Positions 6,001 to 23,320 of a DNA stretch of 23,320 nucleotides are shown here, in pieces (the first letter of the stretch is position 1; every line of letters begins with the position of its first letter). This DNA is from a virus. A model generated the notes under the pieces. That model was not told the origin of the DNA. It saw nothing but the letters and a program-made list of their open reading frames with translations, and searched no databases. A program made the position numbers and the translations under genes. Where the stretch lies: the IMG/VR virus record IMGVR_UViG_3300025151_000315, positions 1 to 23,320 of that record. One strand, given 5' to 3'.

Positions 6001-6355
6001 GTTTATATTAAATTGGACGCCTTCCAGTGTGAATGAATTTGATGTATTTGTTGCAGGTAAACGACTTAGAAAAGCTATACCAGTTGATCCTAATAATACA
6101 ACGGCTGATTATAATTACTATGTATATGATGAAACAAAGGATCAAGATAGCCCTGGAGGTGATGTTGTTGTTGCTCCAGAATTTACAATACAAAACAATA
6201 TTTTGACTGTGGTAAATGCTCCGTTGAATAATACTGAAGTTAAAATTATAAGAAAAACAGGAAAGATTTGGAATGACGACGGTGTCAGTTTAGCTAATAG
6301 TAAAAATACTATAAGCAAGTTTCTAACAGATAGCACATATAAGCTCGCCCGATAA
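2..6355 (+). CDS. Giant modular tail structural protein (5'-truncated by window edge)
   Basis: The frame is open from base 2, so the true start lies upstream; the first in-window start-like codon (TTG at 167) sits inside a continuing domain and is not the start. About 2,117 residues are visible. The first roughly 100 read as FG-GAP-like beta-propeller repeats (SLAISDNGNYIAVGA, then NERFGYKLDF). A Trp/Tyr-rich central part follows, with two sets of glycine-rich beta repeats (near nt 1720-1970 and 2870-3100, the latter with SSPTVTISGGGG). At least three modules then carry a GDGxTxxF motif (near nt 3805, 4386 and 5975), and near nt 5795-5935 a segment reads IDGERIEYYEKDG then RRGTLGTG. No enzymatic motif was seen. 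Long beta-rich repeat proteins of this kind are known as tail or baseplate-associated structural proteins in marine T4-like phages. A virion role is likely; the exact location is inferred. Confidence 0.8.
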   Translation, partial: ELWGTSLAISDNGNYIAVGANRSDIEDSTDTGTDKGIVYIHKYNTSSLQFENTQTLQAPKSSKNERFGYKLDFSNNKLCVLGVNGKNIDKTTFDSNLTIFDNNTTRLLNISTRRPQAYTFELLNDQYTASETIDYESYYTQPNGVVIARDLSGARDVEIEYQDNHLYLGFEGIDTNNNKRGIIFDLRANRDAVNWTTLGAATDFIDYNKMRGTFLYDRQTSDLITYLDAIDPIQGKIANAAEKELDYKLYYDPAVYNIGSTNTGEVNPWGEEYVGKLLWDLNAVKWYNPYQKNTEYSSNVWNKVVPGYSVDIYEWVESTLLPEEWDAIADTTEGLSQGVSGSSKYGNTNYVRKNVYDPITGLFSSKYFYWVKNSKVVPVLENRTISADTVASLIEDPAGNGYRFVGLFGTDNFAVYNCQSLVKDEDTILHFEYYNTEEVLPNNLHREYSLITEGLSTSQPSDKIVDKWIDSLVGYDEQKTLLPVTTLSPARRYGILDNPLQTMFVNKTEALKQVIERINLVLAKNLIVDEFDISKLSSKDPVPTAVSRTYDTAIENETLLRFVGTSKIKQATLDVTITDGRLTNVLITEPGRGYIDPAFNSATETKRRGPSVLIQGSGTGAEIETYINNLGQVIEANIVNAGINYSQSTVITVRPFTALINSDSTLLGFWTTYIWNQTEKEWIRINNQNYDASLYWNYIDWYATGYSVETAIDYLVPGSYALEGLQDNLGDIVKVETIGSGGWLLLRKIDNQAEVDYTVNYETIGRQNGTIEFSRLLYSNEKFGFDKAVYDSALYDRDAGEEVRVILNAIKEDIFVDQLLVEWNKLFFSSVRYALAEQPNVDWIFKTSFIKAKHNVGQLSQKVTYKNDSLDSYLEYVNEVKPYSAKIREYVSAYENIEPTSTVVSDFDLPPRYDANAQKIIPEPAQVVDSQISNYSEFVTTYPQKNWFDNVGFEIKEIKITNGGSGWYSSPTVTISGGGGPTITGTTTLSGDTVTGIVVNTQGKKYITAPNITVTGSQSDTGTPVIAYAIIGNSPVRSTHMLIKFDRVSGSYLVTDLDVTENFTGTGSQIEFNVKWPISVKPADTKVVVDTVEQLSSDYIVENILDTTASYTRNFGRITFTNPPSNATSIVITYKKDINYLSATDRINFYYNPTTGQFGKELSQLMDGVDYGGVQIDTATFGANTGFDSGDKFGITDFDRFSGNLEDEVIILDGSTKTITASKPFESGIKYNIYYKSATAGLSDNPIRIDDPEFGTVGQDNTNAIMLTITGDGITSTFDINEDLLVTKDGDTIIIRKESSDGAFTPSGVIFDTEISGGSLTNLGNIFQTATGVASGDVVVDGDGFVTPTSSKGPEEQVPGQVLDTLDIQVIERVSDGQGAITVQNFRTDGISAEYYLEDLPANQDSVIVKLDNVVLDPTQYEIDYIEKILRISDSSLLPVGKHLSLLAIGTNGSSIIDSDTFTGDGKTRTFITGYNWVENITGVIAINGVVTTNFTIDKAGPEYGENADRIIITLGEAPTLNSIVTYSLYAGTGTKYSQLAIDDTFDRFVSTQRSHTFGVNGAVTLPFNKKPISHNILVKVGDKFLEAGHVVKHTLTTDRTYEIDNWQFKDKTLIKQSDILVYINDSKIDPVNYVYDTINGRLDLTTRAVGKPGDVMRVYIIDSAEYFFVDTVVNLSNAGSLVDYEPLDQINFTLNDSTNVIATVQEYTKSGDDVTIKLQGYVRDLILLSEKDNTPTLYFDDSTDFRIDSINVVESDRLSLKDIPTEDVKIYVFSNHDTNEFERLSYCVNYDGTEAPEGSADYFAKNLLSKGHIVLNSIIPSANYAWVFLNGKFLTAQSDYILAEDGKTIILSNAPILNDQIEILYFTAPVSKKKFAFRIFKDMLNRYHYKRINSEREYRLTSPLNYYDLAIVLDSSDGLDEPNRQSSIPGIIFIDGERIEYYEKDGNVLRQLRRGTLGTGVKELHNQGSRVFHQGTSETIPYQDTTYTQKFVGDGSTNEFILNWTPSSVNEFDVFVAGKRLRKAIPVDPNNTTADYNYYVYDETKDQDSPGGDVVVAPEFTIQNNILTVVNAPLNNTEVKIIRKTGKIWNDDGVSLANSKNTISKFLTDSTYKLAR

Positions 6356-6374: not shown

Positions 6375-6980
6375 ATGATAGAAAAAGAACAAAACGGTGT
6401 ACATATAGAAGGTCATATAAAAATATTCAACCCAGAAACGGGCTTTGTGTTTGTTGACAAACGCAATGCAATTCATTATGAGAATATGAGTATAAGCCTT
6501 GCAGAAAGTCTTGGAAATATTGGCCAAGGATTTATAAGTGAAATGAGTTTTGGTAACGGTGGAACAATTGTTGATCCAACTGGAATTATAACTTATTTGA
6601 CACCTAATAGCACAGGAACAAACGCAAGTTTATACAATCAAACTTATACTAAAGTTGTTGATGCAAATAATGTTAATAATCTTGATCCTACACGTAATAA
6701 AATTGAAACTAGACACGTTGCCGGCACTAATTACACCGATATTGTCATCAGCTGTCTACTTGATTATGGCGAACCAGATGGACAAGATGCATTTGATACT
6801 GCCGCAGATACTGAGCAACAGTTTGTATTTGACGAGTTAGGATTGAGAGGCTATAGTGCTAGTGGTACAGGTAGATTAATTACACACGTAATTTTTCACC
6901 CAGTGCAAAAATCATTGAATAGATTGATTCAAATTGACTACACTGTAAGAGTACAAAGCCTTAGCGGAGGGAATAGCTAA
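6375..6980 (+). CDS. Probable virion structural protein, 201 aa
   Basis: This gene encodes a 201-residue soluble protein with no signal peptide, membrane segment or recognisable catalytic motif. AAGGA lies about 9 nt before the ATG, which supports the start. It begins 19 nt after the giant tail gene and its stop overlaps the next ATG by one base (TAATG), so it sits inside a late structural operon. Beta-strand-like segments alternate with glycine-rich turns, and the C-terminal third (residues about 140-195) has well-formed strands such as LITHVIFHPV and LIQIDYTVRVQSL. I recognise no named domain. The position between the giant tail protein and the fibre paralogues makes a baseplate or tail-fibre connector role plausible, but that is inferred from context alone. 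Confidence 0.6.
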   Translation: MIEKEQNGVHIEGHIKIFNPETGFVFVDKRNAIHYENMSISLAESLGNIGQGFISEMSFGNGGTIVDPTGIITYLTPNSTGTNASLYNQTYTKVVDANNVNNLDPTRNKIETRHVAGTNYTDIVISCLLDYGEPDGQDAFDTAADTEQQFVFDELGLRGYSASGTGRLITHVIFHPVQKSLNRLIQIDYTVRVQSLSGGNS

Positions 6981-9007
6981 TGGCATATGAAATACCCTTT
7001 ACAGATGAAGCAAATAAAGGTACAATAACTGTAGAAGATAATGCAATCAATACAGATACAAGTCTTGGATTGATTGGACAAAACTCTACAGGTTATGGAA
7101 TAAGTTTTAATACAAATTTATTACATATGTTAGAAAATTTTGCTAATGCAAATCCACCTAGCAATCCTGTCGAAGGACAATTGTGGTATGATACTACAGC
7201 AGGGATTGACCAATTAAAAATATATGATGGTACACAATGGGTATCAGCAGGCGGATTAAAAAAATCAACAGTTCAACCAGCAACAGATAATAGTGTAGTA
7301 GGAGATATTTGGGTCGACACTAACAATAGTCAAATGTACATTTATTCAGGTAGTGGGTATGTGCTTGTAGGTCCACAATATAGTTCTGCACAAATCACTG
7401 GTGCAATTGCATATAGTATTGATAGAGCAGATGACACTCCTGCAAAACAAGTAACAGCAATATATGCAGAAGATGTTATTGTAGCAATTATATCAGATGA
7501 AGAATTTGCACCAAAAACAAATATTGCAGGTTATACATCATCGGTTCCTTTTAAAGTTGGTATAAACTTAAACAGGACATTATCGTCTGTGTTAAACGGT
7601 ACAGCAGATAGAGCAAACAATATTGTTATAAACAATTTGCCTGTGCCAGGTACAAACTTTGTGCGTAACGATGCAGAAGCTGGAAAGCAAACAATTGATG
7701 CACCTATTAGAATAAGTGACAATAGAGGTATTGAACTAGGACAAACAAAAACCCTAAGTTTACAAATTGAAGATGCAGATAGTATTATTGAACATTTTGG
7801 TACAGGAACATTAGATATTAGGTCGATTGTATCTTCAACTCCTGCAATAAGAGTTAAACAATCAGAAAATACAAACAATACAGGGATTAATAATCCAAAC
7901 CCAACAGAAGCATTAGATGTAACTGGAAACATATTAACAAGCGGAACATTAAAAACTACAGATACAACAAATTCTACAAGTAGTATTACAGGTTCTATTA
8001 CAACTCCTGGAGGTATAGGTGTAGCACAAGATTTGCACGTTGGCGGTAGCCTTACAGTAAACAGCAATATAGTTGCTGAAACTTTACTACCAGAAACAGA
8101 TAGTGCAAATAATATTGGTAATACTACTCTTTACTATGATAATTTATACGCAAATCGTATAAACACTACATCAATTCAACCAAAAAGTGGATCAAGTTTA
8201 AGTATTACAGGAACACTGAACGGAACATCAACAAGTTCTGGAAAACTTAATAGTTTAACAACATTTAGATTAGTTGGTGAGGTAACTGCTGACAGTTTCA
8301 CTTATGACGGACAAACAGGTGGGCTTACAAAAACTTTTGCAAATAGTGTAATTGATCCTACTTTTGTTACAAATAAGCCAGCTGTACCAGCGCCAATTGT
8401 TGGAACAGATGAACTGCTAGTTGCAAGAGGAAGCACATTATATAAAGCAACACAAAACGATATTATAGGAAGTATTCAAACAATTCCAATTGGGTCAGTG
8501 ATGCCATATGCTGGAGGCACAGCACCATCAGGATGGTTATTTTGTGATGGATCTATTCAAATTGCTACAACATATAATTTACTATATGATGTAATTGGAA
8601 CAACATATGGATCTTCTGGTGCAAACACATTTGCACTTCCAGATTTAAGAGGTAGACATCCAGTCGGCTTACTTGGTTCTCCTAGCAGTAATAACAATAG
8701 AATCACATCAGGTACCGCATCTCTCGGAGGTGTAAGCGGTAACGCAACTAATACAATTACTTCAGCTAATTTACCTGATCACACACACGATTTAGAAAGT
8801 GACACCGGAGACCAATATTATGCTACAACTACAGTTGCATCACAAACTGGATCAGGTTCTAGTGCAGGTGGAGCTGCTGCAGATGGAGCAAGCGGAACTA
8901 AAATTTCAGTAACTGGTGGTATACCGGGTGCTACAAATAATCCATTAGATACTACTGATCCGTTCCTTGCAATGAACTTTATTATATATACGGGGCAAGT
9001 GATATGA
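6980..9007 (+). CDS. Tail fibre protein with N-terminal paralogous domain and C-terminal tail collar domain
   Basis: This 675-residue protein has three parts. Residues about 25-230 form the N-terminal domain shared with the next two genes (LGLIGQNSTGYG, then LLHMLENFANANPPSNP, EGQLWYDTT, and a second W-containing copy). The middle is a beta-rich shaft with LTVNSNIVAE and the fibre-type motif NNIGNTTLYYDNLYANRI. Residues about 502-560 match a phage tail collar domain (IPIGSVMPYAGG, SGWLFCDGS, FALPDLRGRHPVG). The end carries LPDHTHDL and DPFLAMNFIIYTG, as in T4 gp12-like and microcystin-dependent-protein-like short fibres. GGAGG nine nt before the ATG fixes the start, which overlaps the previous stop by one base. 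The protein is likely trimeric and used in host recognition. The collar assignment is strong; receptor binding is inferred. Confidence 0.88.
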   Translation: MAYEIPFTDEANKGTITVEDNAINTDTSLGLIGQNSTGYGISFNTNLLHMLENFANANPPSNPVEGQLWYDTTAGIDQLKIYDGTQWVSAGGLKKSTVQPATDNSVVGDIWVDTNNSQMYIYSGSGYVLVGPQYSSAQITGAIAYSIDRADDTPAKQVTAIYAEDVIVAIISDEEFAPKTNIAGYTSSVPFKVGINLNRTLSSVLNGTADRANNIVINNLPVPGTNFVRNDAEAGKQTIDAPIRISDNRGIELGQTKTLSLQIEDADSIIEHFGTGTLDIRSIVSSTPAIRVKQSENTNNTGINNPNPTEALDVTGNILTSGTLKTTDTTNSTSSITGSITTPGGIGVAQDLHVGGSLTVNSNIVAETLLPETDSANNIGNTTLYYDNLYANRINTTSIQPKSGSSLSITGTLNGTSTSSGKLNSLTTFRLVGEVTADSFTYDGQTGGLTKTFANSVIDPTFVTNKPAVPAPIVGTDELLVARGSTLYKATQNDIIGSIQTIPIGSVMPYAGGTAPSGWLFCDGSIQIATTYNLLYDVIGTTYGSSGANTFALPDLRGRHPVGLLGSPSSNNNRITSGTASLGGVSGNATNTITSANLPDHTHDLESDTGDQYYATTTVASQTGSGSSAGGAAADGASGTKISVTGGIPGATNNPLDTTDPFLAMNFIIYTGQVI

Positions 9008-10936: not shown

Positions 10937-12442
10937 ATGGCATACATAATTAATAGATTTAGTGGAGCACAATTATTATCACTAGAAGATGGTACAGTTG
11001 ACAACACAACTGATTTAAAATTAATAGGTAAAAACTATAGCGGATATGGCGAAGCACAAAACGAAAACTTTTTATTTTTACTAGAAAGTTTTGCTGGATC
11101 AACAAGTCCTGCAAAAGCAATAAGCGGACAAGTTTGGTTTGATAGTTCTACCAACAAATTAAAATATTATACAGGAACAACCTGGAAAACAGCAGGCGGA
11201 GCAGAAGTTGCTTCAGTAGAACCAGCTGGGTTAGTTGAAGGAGATCTTTGGTATAATAGCAACACAAATCAGTTGTTTGCTAGAACAAGTGCAAGTGAAT
11301 TTGTATTAGTAGGACCTCAAGCTGCTGGTACAGGTACTACACAATTGTTAAGTACAAATGTTAATTCCAGTCCGTCAGATGTTGCTATTCCTGTAGTTAT
11401 TGCCCTTGTAAATAACAATCCAGTCTATATGATAAGTGATGTTGATTTTACACCAAGTTCTACACAACCGTCAGCATTAGATGATTATGACATTACAGGA
11501 CATTTTCCTGTAGTTAAAAAAGGCATAACATTAATTAGAACTCCTAGTACAGGAATTACAGGGCAAGATGATGATACAAATACAGCAATTTATTGGGGTA
11601 CTTCAAGTAATGCTTTAAAACTTAATGGTTTAGATTCAAGTAACTTTATTTCATCTGCAGGTGCTGGTTCAGCATTAGAAATACCTGACGACGAAGGTAT
11701 TAAAATTGGTGATAGTTTAGATTTACAATTGCACGTGACTAATGGTAATGAAGCTACAATATCAAATTTAATTGGCAATGAAATTAAATTTCAATCATAT
11801 ACAGCCAGTACCGGATTAATAGAAATTGCAAGAATTCAAAATGATACTGATACAGGATTTGTTCCATTTATTAACAATGCATATGTTTTAGGAACATCTG
11901 CAAAAAAATGGAATACAGTACACGCAACTACCTTTTCTGGTAATGCAACTTCTGCAGATGCAGTTAGAGTTTCAGGAACTGACTATCCAGGTGCTCTTGA
12001 TAGCACAGGAGAAACTGTAGCTATTAGAGATGTAAATGGAAATTTAGTTGCAAACGTATTTACTGGTACAGCATCTAGAGCAAGATATGCAGATTTAGCA
12101 GAAAAATATTCAACAGCAGAAGAATTAGCGCCAGGCACAGCAGTTGCAGTTGGTGGAGATGATGATTATGAAGTTCGTCCTGCAAAATCAAGTGATGTTT
12201 GTATTGGTGTCGTATCAACAGATCCAGCATATATGATGAACAGTGACGCTGAAGGACAATACATAGGCCTTAAAGGAAGATTACCAATTAGGGTAAAAGG
12301 TCCTGTTGCAAAAGGACAAGCAATTTATGCTTGGGAAGACGGTGTATGTTCTACAGTGCAAACAACTGCTTTAGTAGGTATTGCTTTAGAATCAAACGAA
12401 ATAGGTGATGAAAAACTTGTAGAGTGTGTGCTAAAGACATAA
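10937..12442 (+). CDS. Tail fibre-like protein, third paralogue, with C-terminal ADLAEKY-type domain
   Basis: The 501-residue product starts at an ATG with GAGGA 6 nt upstream. Residues about 25-130 are the shared N-terminal domain (LKLIGKNYSGYG, FLLESFAGSTSPAKAI, SGQVWFDSSTNKL, EGDLWYNSNTNQL). Residues 226-238 (NALKLNGLDSSNF) and 313-334 (a 'YVLG...KKWNTVHATTFSG' pattern) are fibre-shaft motifs. The last 118 residues (384-501) form a compact unit with ADLAEKY, APGTAVAVGG, CIGVVSTDPAYMMN, LKGRLPIRVKG and ALVGIALES. I have seen this kind of tip in many marine phage and virus fibres. It resembles the Peptidase_G2-type intramolecular cleavage domain of phi29 gp12, but I cannot confirm that or identify catalytic residues. 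Its own late-promoter motif precedes it. Confidence 0.8.
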   Translation: MAYIINRFSGAQLLSLEDGTVDNTTDLKLIGKNYSGYGEAQNENFLFLLESFAGSTSPAKAISGQVWFDSSTNKLKYYTGTTWKTAGGAEVASVEPAGLVEGDLWYNSNTNQLFARTSASEFVLVGPQAAGTGTTQLLSTNVNSSPSDVAIPVVIALVNNNPVYMISDVDFTPSSTQPSALDDYDITGHFPVVKKGITLIRTPSTGITGQDDDTNTAIYWGTSSNALKLNGLDSSNFISSAGAGSALEIPDDEGIKIGDSLDLQLHVTNGNEATISNLIGNEIKFQSYTASTGLIEIARIQNDTDTGFVPFINNAYVLGTSAKKWNTVHATTFSGNATSADAVRVSGTDYPGALDSTGETVAIRDVNGNLVANVFTGTASRARYADLAEKYSTAEELAPGTAVAVGGDDDYEVRPAKSSDVCIGVVSTDPAYMMNSDAEGQYIGLKGRLPIRVKGPVAKGQAIYAWEDGVCSTVQTTALVGIALESNEIGDEKLVECVLKT

Positions 12443-12462: not shown

Positions 12463-13644
12463 ATGGTTAACCAAATTATATCTGCTGCACGATACAATGT
12501 GTTACAATCTAGAATAGCAACTGTGTTAGGAGTTGGTGTAGGAGCAACTGGATATAATCAAGCAGTAAGTTCTCAACAGGTATCTAAAGAAGCCACAGTA
12601 ACCGCTGTAGAAATGAATCAGCTTTATGCAGATTTAATAAAAATTAGAACTCACCAAACTGGAACAGAACCTACAGATGCTATAAAGCAAGTTAGTGATA
12701 ATACATTTCAATATCTAATTCAAAATGCGTACATAAACACAAGTAATAATAATGTAGTAACAATAACTACTACTGTAAATCATAATTTAGTTAACGGACT
12801 TTGGGTGGACCAATTTGTAGGCGTAGTAGGTATGACACAATTAAATGGTGTATCAGGTTATGCTAAAGTTTTGTCTGCAACAGAATTTGAATTATATTCT
12901 AATTATGATCGAACACAAGGACTGCCATTTACAAACCCAATTGGAGAGGTAACTTGGGGCTCATATATATCTGGTGGAGCATTTTATCATACAATTGGTG
13001 AAGAATCTTATCAAACATATGAAGCACTTATAACACTTTGTGAAACCGCAAAGTACAATGTGGATTCAACCCAAGCAGATCCAGCAATAAAAAATACAAG
13101 AACTAGAACTGCTTTATGGGGAGGTACCGCAACACCTCAAGTTGTTTCACACGAATTTCAAGTTACATTTACTACAGCAAATGCACGTAGAGGTTTCTTT
13201 AATGCAGGAGGAGAATTAAGATTTTCTGCAAGTTTAAATAACATACCTAGTCCTGGAGCAGACAATTATGCAAAATCTGGAGACTGGGATGCAATGCTTA
13301 CTAATATGGGGGTTATATCATTTAACTATCAAGAAACAGTTAGCAGTCTAGCAAACGGTACAGGATCAACAATTGGAAATTATGACTTGACAAGTACGTA
13401 TCAAACAATATATACTAAAACAGGTAGTGCAGTTTATATTGAAAATGAATATACAATTAAAGTCAAAGAAAATAGTAATTTACAGTTGCAATTTTTAATT
13501 GAATTTACAGATGATGCAAATGGCTCCGGTGGAGCTGACGAAAGAGTAGAAGGTACATTAGAAAGTGTTCTTACAGAATATAGATCTACAGGACCATATG
13601 TTGAAAGTGAATCGCCAACAATTACTGTATTACAAAGTTTATAA
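12463..13644 (+). CDS. Tail/virion protein, first of a tandem paralogue pair (NAGG-core family)
   Basis: This 393-residue protein starts at an ATG preceded by AAGGA. Its helical N-terminus (residues 1-70) contains ISAARYNVLQSRIATVLG and ends in a segment with HQTG. Residues about 217-286 hold the core shared with the next gene: RTALWG, then TTANARRGFFNAGGELRFSA, then GDWDAMLTNMGVISF. The C-terminus is beta-rich, with YIENEYTIKVKENSNLQLQF and acidic, glycine-rich turns. No catalytic motif, membrane segment or signal peptide is visible. The family recurs, as I remember it, beside tail-fibre genes in T4-like marine phages without an assigned function. The location directly after the fibre paralogues suggests a structural appendage. 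The weak TATAAAAG just upstream is not convincing as a separate promoter. Confidence 0.7.
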   Translation: MVNQIISAARYNVLQSRIATVLGVGVGATGYNQAVSSQQVSKEATVTAVEMNQLYADLIKIRTHQTGTEPTDAIKQVSDNTFQYLIQNAYINTSNNNVVTITTTVNHNLVNGLWVDQFVGVVGMTQLNGVSGYAKVLSATEFELYSNYDRTQGLPFTNPIGEVTWGSYISGGAFYHTIGEESYQTYEALITLCETAKYNVDSTQADPAIKNTRTRTALWGGTATPQVVSHEFQVTFTTANARRGFFNAGGELRFSASLNNIPSPGADNYAKSGDWDAMLTNMGVISFNYQETVSSLANGTGSTIGNYDLTSTYQTIYTKTGSAVYIENEYTIKVKENSNLQLQFLIEFTDDANGSGGADERVEGTLESVLTEYRSTGPYVESESPTITVLQSL

Positions 13645-14770: not shown

Positions 14771-15118
14771 ATGGACGAACGTCTTGAAAAAGCACTTGAC
14801 ATTAGCAACTATATGGTTACATTAAACAATCAAACGAGATTGCTTAAAGAACAATATTCTGAAAATCTTGTCTATTATTTTAATGGTGGCCAGTTTTCTA
14901 TTACACAACAACTAGTTAGTTTTTGTCAAAGTTTGCTTTCTTTGAAACAACAATCAACTATACTAATTGATGATAACAATATACCTATTGAAGTTGAAGA
15001 TTTAGAAAGTTTTACAAACTCAATTATAAGTACATATTTTGAAGCATCTAATAGATACCTTACAGAATATAATAAACTTAAGAAAAATAGATCAATTGAA
15101 AGTATTATGGATTTATGA
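14771..15118 (+). CDS. Small helical protein of unknown function, first gene of the operon
   Basis: The product is 115 residues from the ATG at 14771. It is predicted by eye to be largely alpha-helical, with Leu/Ile heptad-like spacing (EKALDISNYMVTLNNQ, QQLVSFCQSLLSLKQQ) and charged surfaces. It has no membrane segment, Cys cluster or known domain. The stop overlaps the next start as ATGA, so it is probably coupled to the first glycosyltransferase-like gene. Its place directly behind a strong promoter means it would be the most immediately transcribed gene of the cassette. It could be a regulatory or adaptor protein, or an unassigned structural or assembly factor; I do not recognise it. Confidence 0.65.
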   Translation: MDERLEKALDISNYMVTLNNQTRLLKEQYSENLVYYFNGGQFSITQQLVSFCQSLLSLKQQSTILIDDNNIPIEVEDLESFTNSIISTYFEASNRYLTEYNKLKKNRSIESIMDL

Positions 15119-15930
15119 GCCAAGGTGTACTGTTATTTGCATTTAATAACGAAAGTATAAATTACGTAAAACAGGCAATATTTTGTGCTAACCGTATACA
15201 AAAATATTTGCAACTACCTGTAAGTTTAGTTACTAATGTTGATGTTAAAGATAGTTGTTTTGATAAAATTATTAAATTAAATCAAAAACAATCTAACAAA
15301 AAATCTTATAGAGATGGATCTTTAAGTAAAAGAATACTATCATTTAACAATAGTGGTAGAGAATTTAGTTTTGACTTATCGCCATATGATGAAACAATTG
15401 TTATGGATACAGATTACATTGTAGCAAATGATAAATTATTAAATTGTTTCAAACAACAAAAAGATTTACTTATGTTTAAAGATGCGACACATTTAGGTAT
15501 TCATAACAACACAAGTGAATTTAAAAAAATAAGTGACAGCGGAATTACGTTTTATTGGGCAACTGTAATTTACTTTAAAAAAACTTTTGTAACCGAAACT
15601 TTTTTTAATTTAGTAAAACATATCAAAGAAAATTATATACATTACAGAGGTGTATATCAGTTTAAGAATACCGTATATAGAAATGATTTTGCATTTAGCA
15701 TTGCTGTGCATATGTTATCTGGTTATGTTGAAAATAATTTTATCGGCACAATACCAGGCAAAAAATATTATTCTATTGATAGAGATATATTGATTGATTT
15801 GAACAACGACGAATTTAAACTTTTAGTAGAAAAGCAAGATAGACTTGGTGAATACACACTAGTAAAATTAAAAGGTAGTAATTTACATATAATGAATAAA
15901 TTTAGTTTGGAAAGAATTATCAATGCCTAA
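15115..15930 (+). CDS. GT8-like glycosyltransferase candidate, copy 1
   Basis: This 271-residue protein has the outline of a GT-A-fold transferase. The N-terminal strand GVLLFAFNN is followed by a helix (NYVKQAIFCANRIQ) and a strand PVSLVTNVD. A DxD metal and nucleotide-sugar motif, SPYDETIVMDTDYIV, has its Asp residues at 98 and 100. The following gene has the equivalent segment SPYDDTLVMDTDMLV, so the two are tandem duplicates that have diverged strongly. No signal peptide or membrane anchor is visible, so the protein should act in the cytoplasm. The acceptor and donor sugars cannot be read from the sequence. The length is typical of compact GT8-type enzymes. The start overlaps the previous gene by 4 nt. 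The fold is fairly likely, but activity is an inference. Confidence 0.65.
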   Translation: MSQGVLLFAFNNESINYVKQAIFCANRIQKYLQLPVSLVTNVDVKDSCFDKIIKLNQKQSNKKSYRDGSLSKRILSFNNSGREFSFDLSPYDETIVMDTDYIVANDKLLNCFKQQKDLLMFKDATHLGIHNNTSEFKKISDSGITFYWATVIYFKKTFVTETFFNLVKHIKENYIHYRGVYQFKNTVYRNDFAFSIAVHMLSGYVENNFIGTIPGKKYYSIDRDILIDLNNDEFKLLVEKQDRLGEYTLVKLKGSNLHIMNKFSLERIINA

Positions 15931-16762
15931 TTTTACAATGTTAGCACAAAATACAGAAGTTGATTATGTACAACAAGCCTATCTAAATGCTATGAGTATA
16001 AAGGCAACAAACAATGATGCAAACATTTGTCTTATTACAAACGACGAAGTACCTACAAAATATAAACCTTTGTTTGATCATATTGTAGAAATACCTTGGG
16101 GCGATCACGCAAAAGATTCAGATTGGAAAATTGAAAACAGATGGAAGATTTATCACGCATCACCTTATGATGATACACTTGTAATGGATACTGATATGCT
16201 TGTATTACAAGATATATCATCTTGGTTTGATTTTTTGCAAAATTATGATTTGTTTTTTACAAGCAATGTATATACTTACAGGAATGAACTAATTACTAAT
16301 AATTATTACAGGCACACATTTGAAAAAAATTATCTGCCAAATATTTACTGTGGTGTACATTATTTTAAAAAATGTGATTTATCTCACGAATTTTATACTT
16401 GGTTAGAAATGATTACAAATAATTGGCAAAAGTTTTACAGACAACACGCTGGCGGAAGAATGTATCAGCGTAAATGTAGCATAGATTTATCGTCTGCAAT
16501 AGCAACAAAAATTATGAATATAGAAAGTCAAGTTACAAATTCACGAGTTAAGTATCCTAGCTTTACACATATGAAACCAAGAATACAAAACTGGACAAAT
16601 AATGTTGTCGATAGATGGCAAAATAGAGTAGGAACATACCTTGGAGAAGATTTACAATTAAAAATTGGAAATTATTCACAGAATGGAATTTTTCATTATA
16701 CAGAAGATGACTTTGTTACTCAAAGGATAATTAACATATATGAAAAGTATTTAGGAATATGA
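15923..16762 (+). CDS. GT8-like glycosyltransferase candidate, copy 2
   Basis: This 279-residue paralogue of the preceding gene has an N-terminus (MLAQNTEVDYVQQAYLNA) that sits at the usual nucleotide-binding position, with a strand ANICLITND after it. The DxD is in YDDTLVMDTDMLV (Asp 89 and 91). The C-terminal half contains PNIYCGVHYFKK, a common sort of substrate-side strand, and a conserved aromatic-rich tail (TKIMNIESQ, SFTHMKP, FHYTEDDF). The HMKP segment and the following His resemble the late His that ligates the metal in GT8 enzymes, but this match is only by eye. The start overlaps the upstream stop by 8 nt and the end overlaps the next ATG by 4 nt. Donor and acceptor are unknown. 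Confidence 0.7.
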   Translation: MPNFTMLAQNTEVDYVQQAYLNAMSIKATNNDANICLITNDEVPTKYKPLFDHIVEIPWGDHAKDSDWKIENRWKIYHASPYDDTLVMDTDMLVLQDISSWFDFLQNYDLFFTSNVYTYRNELITNNYYRHTFEKNYLPNIYCGVHYFKKCDLSHEFYTWLEMITNNWQKFYRQHAGGRMYQRKCSIDLSSAIATKIMNIESQVTNSRVKYPSFTHMKPRIQNWTNNVVDRWQNRVGTYLGEDLQLKIGNYSQNGIFHYTEDDFVTQRIINIYEKYLGI

Positions 16763-17322
16763 TAAAAGTTACTATAAACAACGATAGATATATTTGTTTT
16801 GACGAAAAGGGTGTAATAAACAAAATTGCAAGGACTCCAGATGAAAACTTTGAAAATTTGCTCGTAGATTTTGAAGAAGTTAGGAAGTTTGCTGAAGGTA
16901 AAGAATCATTAACAAACTACAAAGTGGAATACGATTTTATTGAAAAAAGATACATTGTAAAGAGCATACAACAATATAATGAAGGCGACAATACGCAAAA
17001 CTTTTTGTATGAAATACCAAAAGAATTAACTGGTCTTAACGAAATTACAATTGTGCAAAATAATATTGATAAATGTTGGGAATTAAAATTAGATGTTACA
17101 TTTAAAGAATACATAGATTTACAAAAAATTACAATAAATCCAAATAACCAAATTTATAGTGTTACAAAGTTGTATGATCCTAATGTTTTATACAGAACTT
17201 TAGATTTTTCAACACAAGATAAAATTAAATTTGATAGTGATTTTGAATTTGACAAAATTAATGTTAGCCTTTATACTGTAAGAAAGTTCTCTACATACTA
17301 CCACGAGGTTATAAATGGCTAA
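16759..17322 (+). CDS. Uncharacterised 187-aa protein within the glycosyltransferase operon
   Basis: No domain was recognised in this 187-residue protein. It opens with a short beta strand (MIKVTINNDRYICFDEKGVI) and continues with alternating strands and charged loops. The C-terminal half is rich in Asp, Lys and Tyr (DLQKITINPNNQIYSV, DKIKFDSDFEFDKINVSL). There is no transmembrane region and no Cys pattern for metal binding. It overlaps the GT8-like gene upstream by 4 nt (ATGA) and the DGD-motif gene downstream by 8 nt, so it is translated within the cassette. It might be an accessory or substrate-binding subunit for one of the neighbouring enzymes, which is a guess from position only. It could equally be a small structural protein. 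Confidence 0.6.
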   Translation: MIKVTINNDRYICFDEKGVINKIARTPDENFENLLVDFEEVRKFAEGKESLTNYKVEYDFIEKRYIVKSIQQYNEGDNTQNFLYEIPKELTGLNEITIVQNNIDKCWELKLDVTFKEYIDLQKITINPNNQIYSVTKLYDPNVLYRTLDFSTQDKIKFDSDFEFDKINVSLYTVRKFSTYYHEVING

Positions 17323-18235
17323 CACATTTCGTGTAATTGATTATGATATTGTTTATCTAAGTTATGATGAACCAAATGCAGAAAAAAATTATGCAGATTT
17401 ATGCAAGAAAGTTCCTTGGGCAAAACGTGTCCACGGAGTTGAAGGCAGTGATGCCGCCCACAAAGCCTGTGCTGAATTGTCAGAAACAGATAGATTTATA
17501 ACTGTAGATGGTGACAACTGTATACGTGATGATTTCCTATCACAGTCGATTGATTTTGACGAAAATTTAGATTTAACTGATAAAGTTATAAGTTGGACAG
17601 CAAAAAATATAATCAATGGTTTAAGTTATGGTAACGGAGGAATCAAATGCTGGCCTAAGCAGTATGTACTTGATATGCGTACACACGAAAATGCGCCTAA
17701 AGATAATCCACACGCTCAAGTAGATTTTTGTTGGAACACACAATATGTGCAAATGAATGGCACTTTTAGTGATGTGCATAATAATGCTACACCTCATCAA
17801 GCCTGGCGTGCAGGTTTTAGAGAAGGTGTAAAAATGGCACTAGATCAAGGATTGCGTGTCACAGCAGAGCAGTTTCATAAAAATCATTGGAAAAACTTAC
17901 ATCGTTTGTACATATGGTTAATGGTAGGAGCAGATGTAGAAAACGGACGTTGGGCAATATATGGTGCTAGAGAAGGTTTGTATAAAACAATGTGTACAGA
18001 TTGGGACCATATAAATGTTAGAGATTTTAAGTATTTGAATGAATATTGGGATGACAAAAAAATAGATGACGAAGCTATGTTTCTTGCTACTGAAGATTAT
18101 GGAGTAAAATTAATTAATGAACTTCTGTTGCCTATAGCAATAGAGCCTTTAGATGCAGGTCAAAGCACTTTTTTTAAGACTGTATATCAAAATCCTAGCA
18201 GAGATAATAGCAAGCAGTTTTTGGACAGAGAGTAA
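17315..18235 (+). CDS. GT-A-like protein with DGD motif (single-domain member)
   Basis: The 306-residue product begins with a Rossmann-type strand and helix (YDIVYLSYDEPNAEKNYADL). It then has a VHGVEG segment, a helix AHKACAEL, and the metal-binding-type motif FITVDGDNCIRDDF (Asp 65 and 67). The segment NGLSYGNGGIKCWPKQYVLD follows at 101-120. This order resembles a GT-A nucleotide-sugar transferase, in which a DxD binds metal and the Gly-rich loop lines the active site. The later half is helical, with Trp- and His-rich stretches. The final module of the ORF at 21695 is a clear paralogue (YDIVFISYQEPNADENYKR, then IIDGDADIVEDF and NGLVYGYGGVKLFP). The start overlaps the upstream gene by 8 nt and the stop shares a base with the radical SAM start. 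Substrate is unknown. Confidence 0.65.
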   Translation: MANTFRVIDYDIVYLSYDEPNAEKNYADLCKKVPWAKRVHGVEGSDAAHKACAELSETDRFITVDGDNCIRDDFLSQSIDFDENLDLTDKVISWTAKNIINGLSYGNGGIKCWPKQYVLDMRTHENAPKDNPHAQVDFCWNTQYVQMNGTFSDVHNNATPHQAWRAGFREGVKMALDQGLRVTAEQFHKNHWKNLHRLYIWLMVGADVENGRWAIYGAREGLYKTMCTDWDHINVRDFKYLNEYWDDKKIDDEAMFLATEDYGVKLINELLLPIAIEPLDAGQSTFFKTVYQNPSRDNSKQFLDRE

Positions 18236-19608
18236 TGGAACGCTCTGAAGCAGAAGAAATCAAACGTATTGATGAAATAACAAAACAAATTTCGCCTACA
18301 TTTTGTTTTGCAAAATGGTATCACGCCAACATTTATTTCCAAACAGGTGAAACACATAGTTGTTATCATCCTGCTCCCCATAAGATTGACACAGCACCAT
18401 TACTAGAAAATCCAAGTGCAATACACAACACAGCACAAAAGAAACAAGAACGTGCTGCAATGATGCGTGGTGATCAACCTGCTGGTTGTAACTATTGCTG
18501 GAAAATTGAAGCAATGGGTAAAGATTATGTAAGTGACAGAAAACAACGCAATCAAACTATTTTCTTCAAACATAGATTAAATGCTGTAAAAGAAGGAGGT
18601 GCAGAGTTTGATGTAAATCCTGAATACTTAGAAGTTAGTTTTGGTAACGAGTGTAACTTTCGTTGTGGATATTGTCATCCTAAAGCCAGCAGTAGATATT
18701 ATCAAGAAATCAAACAACACGGGCCATATGATATGGTTAAAAATCATAGATGTGATATTGATTGGTTTCAAATTTTTGAAGAAGAAAACAATCCATATTT
18801 AGATGCGTTTTGGCGATGGTGGCCTGAACTAAGTAAAGAGCTACACATATTACGTATTACAGGAGGCGAACCGACTATCCAACAAAGCACATATAGGTTG
18901 TTTGATATGTTAGATGCAGATCCTAAGCCAGAACTAGAACTAAACTGTAACAGCAACTTAGGCGGCAAACCAAAGCAATTAGAAAAGTTTACAAATCGTG
19001 TAAATGATTTATTAACAAACAATAAGATTAGACGCTTTAAAATGTTTACAAGTATTGATACTTGGGGCAAACGTGCAGAATACATACGTGACGGATTAGA
19101 CATTGAAGTGTTTGAACGCAACTTGGATTATTTTATGCGCAACTGTGAAGCACCTATGGTGTTGATGATTACGTTCAATATATTCAGTGTAACAACATTC
19201 CGCACACTCTTAGAAAAAATCTTAGAATGGCGTGCAAAATACAATGACGTAGAAACACACAGATGGCAACGCTTGGGGTTTGATACACCACACTTGAAAG
19301 AACCTTTGCAATATGATATGAATATATTGCCAAAAGAATATTTAGGTTATATGCGTGACCATTTGCAGTTTATAAAAGAAAACGTTGATGATAATCGAAA
19401 AGATGCATTTAGTACTATTGAATATGAAAAGTTTAGACGTGTTGTTGACTATATGGAAACTACTGAATATCCTTTGGAAAAAGTTATTCAAGGACGTCAA
19501 GATTTTCATAAGTTTTTTACTGAACAAAATCGTAGACGTGGAGTAAATCATTTAGAAGTTTTTCCTGAAATGACTGATTTTTTTGATTTATGTAAAACAT
19601 ATGTTTGA
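18235..19608 (+). CDS. Radical SAM enzyme with N-terminal twitch domain
   Basis: The 457-residue protein has the canonical radical SAM motif C140-NFR-C144-GY-C147, which binds the [4Fe-4S] cluster that cleaves S-adenosylmethionine, and a GGEP motif (LRITGGEPT, residues 206-214) for SAM binding. Upstream of the core, Cys 24, Cys 43, Cys 85 and Cys 88 (FCFAKW, HSCYHP, GCNYCWK) form a likely twitch-type auxiliary cluster site. That is the reverse of the usual order, in which SPASM or twitch domains follow the core. I recall an N-terminal-twitch radical SAM family known chiefly from marine phages and metagenomes, whose reaction is unknown. Its neighbours are the DGD-motif protein (1-nt overlap) and the GNAT-like protein (8-nt overlap). 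Peptide or sugar modification is plausible but not shown. Confidence 0.9.
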   Translation: MERSEAEEIKRIDEITKQISPTFCFAKWYHANIYFQTGETHSCYHPAPHKIDTAPLLENPSAIHNTAQKKQERAAMMRGDQPAGCNYCWKIEAMGKDYVSDRKQRNQTIFFKHRLNAVKEGGAEFDVNPEYLEVSFGNECNFRCGYCHPKASSRYYQEIKQHGPYDMVKNHRCDIDWFQIFEEENNPYLDAFWRWWPELSKELHILRITGGEPTIQQSTYRLFDMLDADPKPELELNCNSNLGGKPKQLEKFTNRVNDLLTNNKIRRFKMFTSIDTWGKRAEYIRDGLDIEVFERNLDYFMRNCEAPMVLMITFNIFSVTTFRTLLEKILEWRAKYNDVETHRWQRLGFDTPHLKEPLQYDMNILPKEYLGYMRDHLQFIKENVDDNRKDAFSTIEYEKFRRVVDYMETTEYPLEKVIQGRQDFHKFFTEQNRRRGVNHLEVFPEMTDFFDLCKTYV

Positions 19609-20200
19609 AATAAAATTATATAATAATGATATTGACTTAACAAATTTTTATAAAGAAGCTGAAAAGAAAAAATTTTATAATAACAGTAGTCAAGAAATGT
19701 TAATTGATTATATTAAAAAATATGAAGATGCAAAGTTATGGGTTTTGTTGTATAACAAACAGCCAGTTGGTACCGTTGTAGCACATAAGTTACAAGAGTT
19801 GGGAATACTAGGCAAAGATGCATATAGAATAGGTGCAAGGACTTGTGTGCTTACTCACTTAATTGGAAAGCAAAGAGTAAAAAGTTTAAAAGGTAAAAAA
19901 GATATTCACTATTCTCACGCTTCTCAGTTTCTACTGCCAGCTTGTATAGAAGGAATCGGTAAAGATAAACCTTTATATCTTAGCACTCATATTGGTAATG
20001 TTGGAAGTCAAAACAAGGTACATTTATTTTGGGCAAAATATTTTCATATTGCTGGTGTATTGCAAAATCCAATAGAATTAGAATATAGAGGTACGTTTCA
20101 AACATTTTGGAAAATTAATGTTGATAAGTTTTATGAAACATTAAAGGAAACAAGGTGGCCTGAAGCCGAAAGTATTTTACCTTTGTTTACCCAAGCGTAA
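19601..20200 (+). CDS. GNAT-like acyltransferase candidate
   Basis: I chose the ATG at 19601 (199 residues), not the upstream TTG at 19583, because it is an ordinary start and gives an 8-nt overlap like other junctions in this operon. The fold pattern is GNAT-like: a helical N-terminus, then strands LWVLLYNKQPVGTVVA, a hydrophobic strand around residues 74-86 (YRIGARTCVLTH), a helix QFLLPACIEGIG, and LYLSTHIGNVGSQNKVHLFW with the final strand-helix pair typical of acetyl-CoA-dependent transferases. No clear Q/RxxGxG/A acetyl-CoA loop could be identified, so the call is tentative. It is the last gene of the cassette, and its stop region overlaps the convergent minus-strand fibre gene by 14 bp. 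It probably acylates an amine or amino sugar made by the neighbours. Confidence 0.55.
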   Translation: MFEIKLYNNDIDLTNFYKEAEKKKFYNNSSQEMLIDYIKKYEDAKLWVLLYNKQPVGTVVAHKLQELGILGKDAYRIGARTCVLTHLIGKQRVKSLKGKKDIHYSHASQFLLPACIEGIGKDKPLYLSTHIGNVGSQNKVHLFWAKYFHIAGVLQNPIELEYRGTFQTFWKINVDKFYETLKETRWPEAESILPLFTQA

Positions 20201-21629
20201 CCCAAGAAGTACCATTCCATCCTTGAAATGTTTTTGATGATTTATTGTAAATTATCATTCCTTCTTCTGGAATTATATCTGTTAAATCGGCTGTGGTATG
20301 TCCTTTTGGTTTTAGGACTGGAGCAGATAAAATTCCTGCACCGTTAAAATTTAAACCTGTAGGATTATCCCAAAACGCACTAGGTAAGTTCCTACCATCA
20401 CTTAATGTTATTGCAAAGTCTGTTGGATATATTTCTAAATCTGGATCTGGCTCTATTTCAGTATTTGCGTAAAAACCCATTCCGCCACCAATCTTATATG
20501 CTTCTCCGTCCCAAGCGTGTGAAGTTATTACCATCATATGATCGCCTGGGTTTAATGGCAATTTATTTTCTTCATCACCGTTAAAAGCAAACATATTAAT
20601 TTGTCCTAAATTTGATGTGTTTACAGGATTTGATTGCATTTTAAAACTAATATTATCAGAATAAATTTCAAGTGTTTCTGTAGCATCTTTACCTATGTTG
20701 ATTTCACCTGTAGCACCGCCACATAATTGTATCTGTCCATCATTAACCGTAAGTATTGGAGTTTTATCAGTATCTACAATACCGCCTATTACATTGCCAT
20801 AAAATTCTGCAATAACGCTAGGTTTATCAGTGTCCGTCCACGGTGTTAGTGCAACAACAGGAGTGCCATCAAAATAATGAACACCTGCACGAATATGGGT
20901 TTGTTGTTCATTATCATTTACAAACAAAATAGTTGAATTAGTGTCAGGGTGTTCTATACCACATTTCAAGTTGTAGTGTTTATGCAAATCGTGCCAATTT
21001 AAAACTGAATCTAATGTGTCTGGTCTAACAATATTTCCTGCTAAACTACCATACAAAACTCCGCTTCCACCATCTAGAACTGTGCCGTTTTCATTAGTAA
21101 TACTTCCTGATACATCACCTGTCAAATTACCAATTACAGGACCTGAATGTGTTCCTGTTGTATTTCCTTGTAAATTACCAATAAAAGCACCTTCTATTGT
21201 TCCAACAAGGTTCACTTCGCCGTATAAGTTACCATAAAAATCACCTACTATTCTATCCACAGTCAAAGTACTTGTCTGAGCATCATAAACCATATCACCT
21301 GCTTGGTCTACAATACTTCCTTGTAAGTTACCTGACAATAAGCCAGTAGAAGAATTTAAAACTACATTACCACTTTCGTCTTTTACATTTCCTACAAGAT
21401 CCATATGTACTTGTTTACTATTTGAATTTAAAAGAATACCGCCTTCATCATCTTCTATATTGCCTATCATTGGGCCATATAGTTTGCCAAACGTAGTATC
21501 AACTTGTACAACACCATCTCTATTCACAACATTGGCTTTTACTTGGCTTGTCCAACTGTCAATCATTAGTGTACTATCTGCACCAACTACATCAATGCGA
21601 TACGAATCTCCAGGTATAAAATCAGTCAT
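20187..21629 (-). CDS. Tail-fibre-like repeat protein on the opposite strand
   Basis: The 480-residue product is the only minus-strand gene seen here. Residues about 48-200 consist of degenerate repeats built on (L)GNL.G.I.D..G.VV.D...G.L.G, for example GNVKDESGNVVLNSSTGLL, GSIVDQAGDMVYD and GDVSGSITNENGTVLDGG. These would suit a trimeric beta-helical shaft. A globular middle (residues 200-400) follows, and the tip ends in GMIIYNKSSKTFQGWNGTSW, a motif common at the ends of phage fibres. Start evidence is strong: GAGGAG lies 6 nt before the ATG, and an AATAAATA late motif lies just upstream. Host recognition is likely but inferred. The unusual orientation and the flanking enzymatic genes suggest it moves as a separate unit. 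Confidence 0.8.
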   Translation of the reverse strand: MTDFIPGDSYRIDVVGADSTLMIDSWTSQVKANVVNRDGVVQVDTTFGKLYGPMIGNIEDDEGGILLNSNSKQVHMDLVGNVKDESGNVVLNSSTGLLSGNLQGSIVDQAGDMVYDAQTSTLTVDRIVGDFYGNLYGEVNLVGTIEGAFIGNLQGNTTGTHSGPVIGNLTGDVSGSITNENGTVLDGGSGVLYGSLAGNIVRPDTLDSVLNWHDLHKHYNLKCGIEHPDTNSTILFVNDNEQQTHIRAGVHYFDGTPVVALTPWTDTDKPSVIAEFYGNVIGGIVDTDKTPILTVNDGQIQLCGGATGEINIGKDATETLEIYSDNISFKMQSNPVNTSNLGQINMFAFNGDEENKLPLNPGDHMMVITSHAWDGEAYKIGGGMGFYANTEIEPDPDLEIYPTDFAITLSDGRNLPSAFWDNPTGLNFNGAGILSAPVLKPKGHTTADLTDIIPEEGMIIYNKSSKTFQGWNGTSWVTLG

Positions 21630-21694: not shown

Positions 21695-23320
21695 ATGTAT
21701 GATGTATTTTTAATTGCCGATAAAAGTTTGTACGAAGAAGATTACAAACGTTTAAAACAAAGCATTCCTACAGTTAAATGTGTTAAAACAATAGAACAAG
21801 CACAACAAAGTTGTGTGACAAAATTTTTGTGGGTAGTGTATCCTGATTTAGAAATTGATCCAAATTTTTACTTTGATTATGTTCCAGATGATTGGAGTCA
21901 CGACTATGTGCATTTATTCTTAAACGACAACGAGTTTGACGGAATTTCCTTAATACCAAAAAATTTAAAAATTACACAACGAGAAGTAGATTACAGATTT
22001 TACAGCAATAAAAAATTTGTAGATATAGTGGCAAGTAAACCAAAACCATTTGATTATTTTGAAATAGATAATTATGACGAATATTGTAATGCTTTAGAAC
22101 AGTCTAAAACACAAATGTTTTGGATGGGAAGTAAAAATATTTCGCAAACTGATTTAGTAAAAAGTTTTTATATTACACATCATAATGCTTCTTTAAGAAA
22201 ACAAAATCACGCTTTTGTACATCAAGTTGATGATAAAAAATTGTACAATGGTTTATTTTTATGTAGTAAAGATCAACCTCTAACACAAAAAGAAGTTGAT
22301 TACAGATTTCCTGTAGCACGTAAAGAATGGAATGAAATTGGATCAGGTCCTGCAAAATATGAAATTTATTTTGTTAATAGTTATGAAGATTATTTAAAAG
22401 CACTTGCAAAGTCAGAAACTGAAATGTTTTATGTTGTTCCAAATCATATTGACTTAGACGATAATTATACATTTGATGAATACTTTACATTTGACAATGA
22501 GTATGACAGAAAAATTAATCACGTTTACCTTAATGGCGAATATCACGATGGTGTTGTATTGTGTAGTAAGCATTCTAAAATTAGTCAAAGAGAATGGCAA
22601 TTTATGTTTATTGCAAACAAAAAAGAACATAATAAAATTGTTAGCAAACCAAAACCATATGATATTGTTTTTATTAGCTATCAAGAACCAAATGCGGATG
22701 AAAATTATAAACGTATCCTAAAACGTTTTCCAGAATGTAAAAGAATACACGGTGTTAAAGGAATACACCAAGCTCATATAGAAGCTGCAAAAATTTGTAC
22801 TACTCCTATGTTTTGGATAATTGACGGTGACGCTGATATAGTTGAAGATTTTAATTTTGATTATCAAGTTCCTGTTTGGCAATGGGATCACGTACACGTA
22901 TGGCGTAGCAGAAATCCTATAAATGGTTTAGTTTATGGTTATGGCGGTGTAAAATTATTTCCTACACAGGCTACTATTGATATGGATACAAGCAAGCCTG
23001 ATATGACAACTAGCATTAGTTCTAAATTCAGAGCAATACAGCAAGTATCTAATATTACAGCATTTAATACAGGAGAATTTGAAACTTGGAAAAGTGCATT
23101 TAGAGAATGCTGTAAGCTAAGTAGTAAAGTAATTGATAGACAAAAAGATATAGAAACAGATAGGCGATTGAAAATTTGGTCATCTATTGGGCGTGATAAG
23201 CCATATGGAGATTTTGCAATAAAAGGTGCAAAAGAAGGCACTATGTATGGAAGTGCAAATAAAAATAATATTGAAGCATTGAAAATGATAAATGACTTTG
23301 ACTGGTTAAAGGAAAAGTTT
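21695..23320 (+). CDS. Multi-domain GT-A-like protein with three degenerate copies and one intact copy (3'-truncated by window edge)
   Basis: The frame is open to the window edge: 542 codons with no stop. Four repeated modules can be read. Modules 1 to 3 (about residues 1-117, 118-221 and 222-321) each start with a strand such as YDVFLIADK, have a strand equivalent to MFW (KFLWVVYPD, MFWMGSKN, MFYVVPN), and end with a conserved signature (DGISLIPKNLKITQREVDYR, KEVDYRF, DGVVLCSKHSKISQRE). Module 4 (322-542) is like the 17315 protein, with YDIVFISYQEPNADENYKR, IIDGDADIVEDF (Asp 378 and 380) and NGLVYGYGGVKLFP. Only module 4 keeps DGD and the GYGG loop. The start is supported because YDV aligns with the starts of the other modules. 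Modules 1 to 3 may bind substrate or partners, and module 4 may be catalytic; both are inferred. Confidence 0.75.
   Translation, partial: MYDVFLIADKSLYEEDYKRLKQSIPTVKCVKTIEQAQQSCVTKFLWVVYPDLEIDPNFYFDYVPDDWSHDYVHLFLNDNEFDGISLIPKNLKITQREVDYRFYSNKKFVDIVASKPKPFDYFEIDNYDEYCNALEQSKTQMFWMGSKNISQTDLVKSFYITHHNASLRKQNHAFVHQVDDKKLYNGLFLCSKDQPLTQKEVDYRFPVARKEWNEIGSGPAKYEIYFVNSYEDYLKALAKSETEMFYVVPNHIDLDDNYTFDEYFTFDNEYDRKINHVYLNGEYHDGVVLCSKHSKISQREWQFMFIANKKEHNKIVSKPKPYDIVFISYQEPNADENYKRILKRFPECKRIHGVKGIHQAHIEAAKICTTPMFWIIDGDADIVEDFNFDYQVPVWQWDHVHVWRSRNPINGLVYGYGGVKLFPTQATIDMDTSKPDMTTSISSKFRAIQQVSNITAFNTGEFETWKSAFRECCKLSSKVIDRQKDIETDRRLKIWSSIGRDKPYGDFAIKGAKEGTMYGSANKNNIEALKMINDFDWLKEKF

Follow-up and report, generated by a model that had tools for sequence, protein, structure and literature searches.

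The window analysed here is a 23,320-base IMG/VR virus record (IMGVR_UViG_3300025151_000315) from an uncultivated aquatic virus; a second stretch (L005) comes from this virus or a near-identical one (99.4% over 5,306 bases). Virion and tail genes, putative glycosyltransferases and a radical SAM protein precede an ORF that starts with ATG and runs off the window end after 542 residues. As its orthologue in L001 (81% identical) measures 546 aa, about four residues are missing. The ORF consists of three degenerate GT-A modules (M1 to M3) arranged head to tail and one intact GT-A-like domain (CAT) that is probably a sugar-attaching enzyme. Two other products of the window gave sub-threshold matches: a 501-aa fibre-like protein (10937-12442) resembles Peptidase_G2, an autoproteolytic cleavage domain, at its C-terminus, and a 393-aa protein among the tail genes (12463-13644) matches E1_FCCH (E 4.7e-6).

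Table. Features of the window, with the domains of its terminal ORF
Feature	Position	Strand	Observations
Virion protein ORF	2-6355		Resembles jumbo-phage virion structural proteins, about 30% identity
Tail collar/fibre protein	6980..9007	+	Pfam Collar 8e-22; PHROG tail protein 6e-22; marks the surrounding host-recognition region
Possible second GT8-like protein (271 aa)	15115..15930	+	Weak match, glycogenin E 0.035; invariant DxD
GT8/glycogenin-like putative glycosyltransferase (279 aa)	15923..16762	+	Family profile vs glycogenin-1 E 6e-7; conserved D-x-D
GT_a (306 aa), stand-alone GT-A-like paralogue	17315..18235	+	36% identical to the catalytic domain
Radical SAM protein (457 aa)	18235..19608	+	phrog_14086 E 5e-10; Pfam Radical_SAM 2.7e-5, below cut-off
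Putative tail-fibre-like protein (480 aa)	20187..21629	-	Gly-rich, repetitive; divergent from the array gene; no strong database match
Array ORF	21695-23320	+	Modules 1 to 3 and CAT
Module 1	21695..22045	+	Residues 1-117; GT-A-like N-terminal half, b1-a1-b2-a2-b3; YPD instead of DGD, second Asp kept
Module 2	22046..22351	+	Residues 118-219; shortened derived module without a1-b2 and without DxD; missing in the nearest relative L008
Module 3	22352..22654	+	Residues 220-320; shortened derived module without DxD; 88% identical in L001, dN/dS 0.064
CAT, GT-A-like putative catalytic domain	22655..23320	+	Residues 321-542; DGD (377-379, nt 22823-22831), YGYGG loop, C-terminal helices

Relatedness between the modules was assessed by local alignment against 500 shuffles. 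This gave z scores of 9.6 (M1-M2), 14.5 (M1-M3), 19.2 (M2-M3) and 17.4 (M1-CAT, 35% identity over 98 aa), and the pairings M2-CAT (z 0.5) and M3-CAT (z 3.7) were unconvincing. Profiles reached further. The module classes matched one another in profile-profile comparisons at E 7e-29 to 8e-55, and against the N-terminal half of CAT first modules scored E 4e-20, middle modules 1.5e-10 and last modules 8e-11. A profile built from single-copy relatives only recognised M1 of the window ORF at iE 3e-12 and M3 at 4e-4, with M2 at just iE 1.6. The homology of M2 and M3 to CAT relies on profiles rather than on pairwise alignment. An alignment that included N-terminal fragments (A2) was discarded, as MAFFT had placed first modules on the catalytic domain.

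Structure prediction with AlphaFold2 on an alignment of 59 relatives yielded the same core in all four copies (pLDDT 93.8 and pTM 0.80 for the window ORF; 93.3 and 0.85 for modules 1-3 alone). According to DSSP of the models each copy runs from b1 through a helix to a strand ending at the DxD position, after which come a short strand, a pair of strands, a helix and a long final strand. The b1-a1-b2-a2-b3 order holds for module 1 and CAT; modules 2 and 3 are reduced to b1-helix-b3. The C-terminal helices (461-541) are unique to CAT in the models, the modules stopping at the last long strand, which leads through a linker of about 3 residues into b1 of the next module in a confidently predicted arrangement.

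In a search with the whole model, E. coli K4 chondroitin polymerase (2z86) was the top Foldseek match. The solved structures closest to CAT are mostly GT-A enzymes, namely B4GALNT1 (Z 11.3, 2.7 A, 135 residues), SunS/ThuS and WrtF, followed by IspD-type nucleotidyltransferases of related fold (Z of about 10); LH3/PLOD3 and mimivirus R699 were also among the structural matches. The Rossmann-like core expected of a GT-A fold is therefore evident from the model and these matches, and the conserved DxD after the central strand is found in the fourth copy only. Foldseek gave no match under E 0.001 for modules 1-3 alone. Their predicted fold draws on the second-look aligner, for module 1 only (B4GALNT1, Z 8.7, 2.7 A over 114 residues), on the common secondary structure and on the profile match to CAT. 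Two proteins of uncultured Caudovirales phages deposited as uncharacterized, A0A6J5LK21 (804 aa, E 1e-34) and A0A6J5L5L5 (1076 aa, E 4e-33), matched the whole model and apparently share its architecture by structure.

The original prediction had read four copies of one GT-A-like domain type into this ORF, with DGD and the following loop confined to the last, and had named unrelated predicted folds or a lack of module-to-module profile matches as grounds for abandoning it. The copies were recovered at nearly the same coordinates, the profile matches are significant, the models share one core, and the PDB matches of CAT and module 1 agree with a GT-A-like fold. One correction applies: modules 1-3 are not full-size GT-A domains, as all three lack the C-terminal helices and modules 2 and 3 also a1-b2.

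The distribution of active-site residues further separates CAT from the modules. D377 and D379 of the DGD motif and about thirty further positions are invariant in CAT across 59 aligned sequences, among them N407, Y414, G415, K420, F469-E471, R491 and W495. In first modules the second Asp of the DxD is present in 82% of 40 cases, as in the YPD of module 1, and across 74 derived modules conservation is lost at both Asp positions. Because the metal site is gone from modules 2 and 3, together with the a1-b2 segment that belongs to the nucleotide-binding face, these two should not work as ordinary GT-A enzymes. Module 1, which is without the C-terminal helices and the first Asp, is for that reason probably inactive as well. 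The residue pattern agrees with the earlier proposal of three modules without a full metal site and one intact module at the end.

Relatives of the ORF are very common in uncultivated viruses, with at least 597 related stretches confirmed by tblastn. For the module scan the set of all derived modules (A8) had too short a conserved stretch and a narrower set (A9) was used; the derived-module profile matched 463 IMG/VR stretches. Among the isolated phages of INPHARED, tblastn found no match for the array ORF, GT_a or a single-domain relative. The Pfam GT2 models (Glycos_transf_2 and kin) stayed below their gathering scores, with best E values of 0.0024 (Glyco_tranf_2_3) and 0.04 (Glycos_transf_2), and neither the array protein nor its relatives matched a PHROG or NCBIfam family at E under 0.003. 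Annotation misses the family because no family model tried covers the array and the isolated-phage collection is without matches.

Many relatives consist of the bare 224-residue domain without any modules, so that the family can do without the arm, a point against the recognition function favoured below. Among the 109 distinct array ORFs, 106 carry a single catalytic domain, in every case at the C-terminus; the other three are truncated at a contig end or divided between two ORFs. Counts of four modules for L199 and two for L177 were rejected since these are split ORFs. Complete non-redundant arrays hold 1 to 11 or 16 modules in ORFs of up to 2,008 aa, with a first-type module first and the catalytic domain last. 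One relative (L183) has an extra degenerate stretch upstream of its first scored module.

Module number has changed about 20 times on the catalytic-domain tree, a quick tree on whose topology the count depends. The nearest relative of the window (L008, catalytic domain 90% identical) has two modules. Modules 2-6 of L247 are 68-90% identical to one another, pointing to single-module duplications; modules 5 and 6 of L153 are 84% identical in DNA, and in L246 a block of about three modules is repeated with copies up to 92% identical. Growth of the gene by repeated internal duplication, as envisaged in the original prediction, is borne out by these near-identical modules and blocks and by the copy-number changes. 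Higher-order repeats are present in L246:4462-10008 and L218:4150-9678, where the block comprises one first-type and two or three derived modules and counterparts are up to 92% identical. Two further proteins, L125 (442 aa) and L163 (445 aa), have an N-terminal region with weak similarity to two parts of the catalytic domain, its start and its C-terminal helices; this region may be a complete copy that has decayed and would then represent an intermediate on the way to the modules.

Such free shifts in copy number, which occur even where the catalytic domains of two relatives are 90% identical, could be neutral, the product of a repeat-prone stretch of the gene in which the copies themselves serve no purpose. 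We consider this very improbable. Every comparable module of the window ORF has a dN/dS of 0.06-0.24 against L001 or L008 and is hence kept by purifying selection, and arrays of as many as 16 modules keep their reading frame, with a fixed order in dozens of lineages.

Two genomic settings recur among the relatives. The first is a cassette of a fibre-like gene, a 285-aa family protein, a GT8/glycogenin-like protein, GT_a, GT_b with or without modules and several radical-SAM proteins, often joined by UDP-glucose dehydrogenase, an NAD-dependent epimerase or a DegT aminotransferase. In the second, typical of most long arrays, the array gene is flanked by a tail-fibre gene and by genes for a tail-sheath stabiliser and a head-tail adaptor. 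The Gly-rich fibre-like type of gene adjoins the array gene in many array-bearing relatives, and GT_a often lies immediately upstream of it or is fused to its catalytic domain. The tree set contains GT_a-GT_b fusions at six viral loci, and two MAG loci (L057, L058) have them too; three of the fusions extend into the u291 family.

In L144, L145, L156, L116 and L001 the gene immediately after the array gene encodes a u291 protein, methyltransferase-like by eye and without a Pfam match. At its N-terminus this protein has helical repeats, each about 22 aa long (EDLRKAVTEKNxHSLFRLLG), whose number varies, making it a second accordion gene of the cassette. Bacterial (Rhodobacteraceae) relatives of GT_a adjoin caspase-domain proteins with Sel1 repeats at several loci (L069, L072, L076, L077, L082, L084, L086, L087, L088). 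Five MAG contigs (L055, L056, L075, L078, L090) carry the phage-type cassette with fibre-like genes; they are therefore probably of phage origin and ended up in bacterial bins.

The fusions suggest that GT_a, GT_b and u291 act jointly, and the short linkers and confidently predicted inter-module geometry would suit a rigid rod. The modules might therefore be a scaffold that has no contact with the acceptor and either distances the glycosyltransferase domain or docks GT_a, the u291 protein and radical-SAM proteins of the cassette. We regard this as rather unlikely, because a pure spacer should tolerate more change than the dN/dS values and the many conserved polar residues suggest, and because module-free loci with the same cassette exist. 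The position of the gene among tail-fibre and virion genes would also fit a virion-displayed, lectin-like receptor-binding arm made from GT modules, in which the terminal domain would serve as one more head, for binding or for modification; copy-number-variable tandem repeats tied to phage tail proteins are known for BACON domains (PMC6949934). That possibility appears improbable, given that the catalytic domain has an invariant DxD and ranks among the most conserved parts, that the ORF contains no recognisable fibre or attachment domain and that the single-domain relatives resemble ordinary soluble enzymes.

We consider it on balance probable that the ORF encodes a GT-A glycosyltransferase with one active C-terminal domain and a length-variable, non-catalytic arm that binds an acceptor or a partner. 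The C-terminal 224 residues would form the active GT-A-type domain, presumably transferring sugar, and the arm would consist of degenerate, non-catalytic copies of the enzyme's own N-terminal half. By analogy and from its context, the array is most likely a recognition arm, in keeping with the original suggestion that dead modules may feed or position substrate. It would bind either a partner enzyme or an acceptor, in the latter case most likely a long repetitive substrate such as a phage tail fibre, or a surface glycan, and hold it for the terminal domain, within a glycan cassette that includes GT_a, the GT8-like protein, radical-SAM proteins and nucleotide-sugar enzymes. Acceptor recognition is favoured on two grounds: the individual copies are constrained although their number is free to vary, as would be expected of repeated binding units, and repetitive fibre genes adjoin.

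The acceptor may be a tail fibre or a host surface glycan. In the sections of the pelagimyophage study that deal with comparable regions, the authors favour modification of the host LPS O-chain rather than of the virion by the glycosyltransferases (PMC7029224), which counts against a virion acceptor. The prediction that module number tracks the length of the neighbouring fibre-like protein is not supported (Spearman 0.51, p 0.13, n = 10). As a tentative extension of the recognition arm, phages might lengthen or shorten their row of 1-16 dead GT-A half-domains and thereby adjust both the choice of repetitive acceptor and the extent of it that the terminal glycosyltransferase reaches. If true, specificity in this enzyme family would evolve through the copy number of its own decayed duplicates.

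The GT-A fold and single pseudo-GT-A accessory domains are known. An array of 1-16 shortened pseudo-GT-A modules ahead of one intact domain is apparently undescribed in the family libraries and literature searched; the literature search covered open-licence papers only, so that finding no description of such arrays in them is a weak negative. The array represents a real, evolving building plan, of which related viruses carry one to sixteen apparently dead copies.

E. coli K4 chondroitin polymerase (2z86) resembles the window ORF in its tandem GT-A domains within a single chain. It has two full GT-A domains, both active, whereas the family described here combines one apparently active domain with 1-16 shortened dead modules. 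B4GALNT1, SunS/ThuS and WrtF have the GT-A core in common with CAT (Z 9-11 over about 135 residues) but no comparable tandem dead modules, and identity is about 10-14%. The BACON repeats of crAssphage are likewise a phage domain array near tail genes that arose by internal duplication; they are, however, Ig-like and enzyme-free, whereas the repeats described here are decayed copies of the enzyme downstream (PMC6949934). In its treatment of host recognition clusters, the pelagimyophage study describes glycosyltransferases and radical-SAM cassettes, so that tail fibres, several glycosyltransferases and radical-SAM cassettes meet in one hypervariable region as they do here (PMC7029224). Those glycosyltransferases are mainly described as GT8 and the account of the clusters describes no module arrays (PMC7029224); a further difference is that the large ORF at the start of the window resembles jumbo-phage virion proteins.

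The closest parallels are LH3/PLOD3 and mimivirus R699, in which an active GT-A domain also stands beside an inactive GT-A-like accessory domain (PMC6082870, PMC11838735). The LH3 accessory domain is no longer active, and a role in collagen recognition has been proposed for it (PMC6082870); that of R699 is involved in donor-induced rearrangements (PMC11838735). The original claim that no characterised enzyme has this arrangement is fair for the arrays, but single accessory domains of this type beside an active one are known. The similarity to LH3 and R699 seen here is one of fold; profile A1 had no match among PDB sequences up to E 10. Both enzymes differ from the window ORF in having a single full-size accessory domain after the catalytic domain, in place of 1-16 shortened dead modules before it; PLOD has a hydroxylase domain in addition. 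Arrays of up to 16 contiguous dead copies that differ in number between close relatives extend these known enzymes with one inactive copy, and offer a natural length series for testing what accessory pseudo-GT domains do, the question left by LH3.
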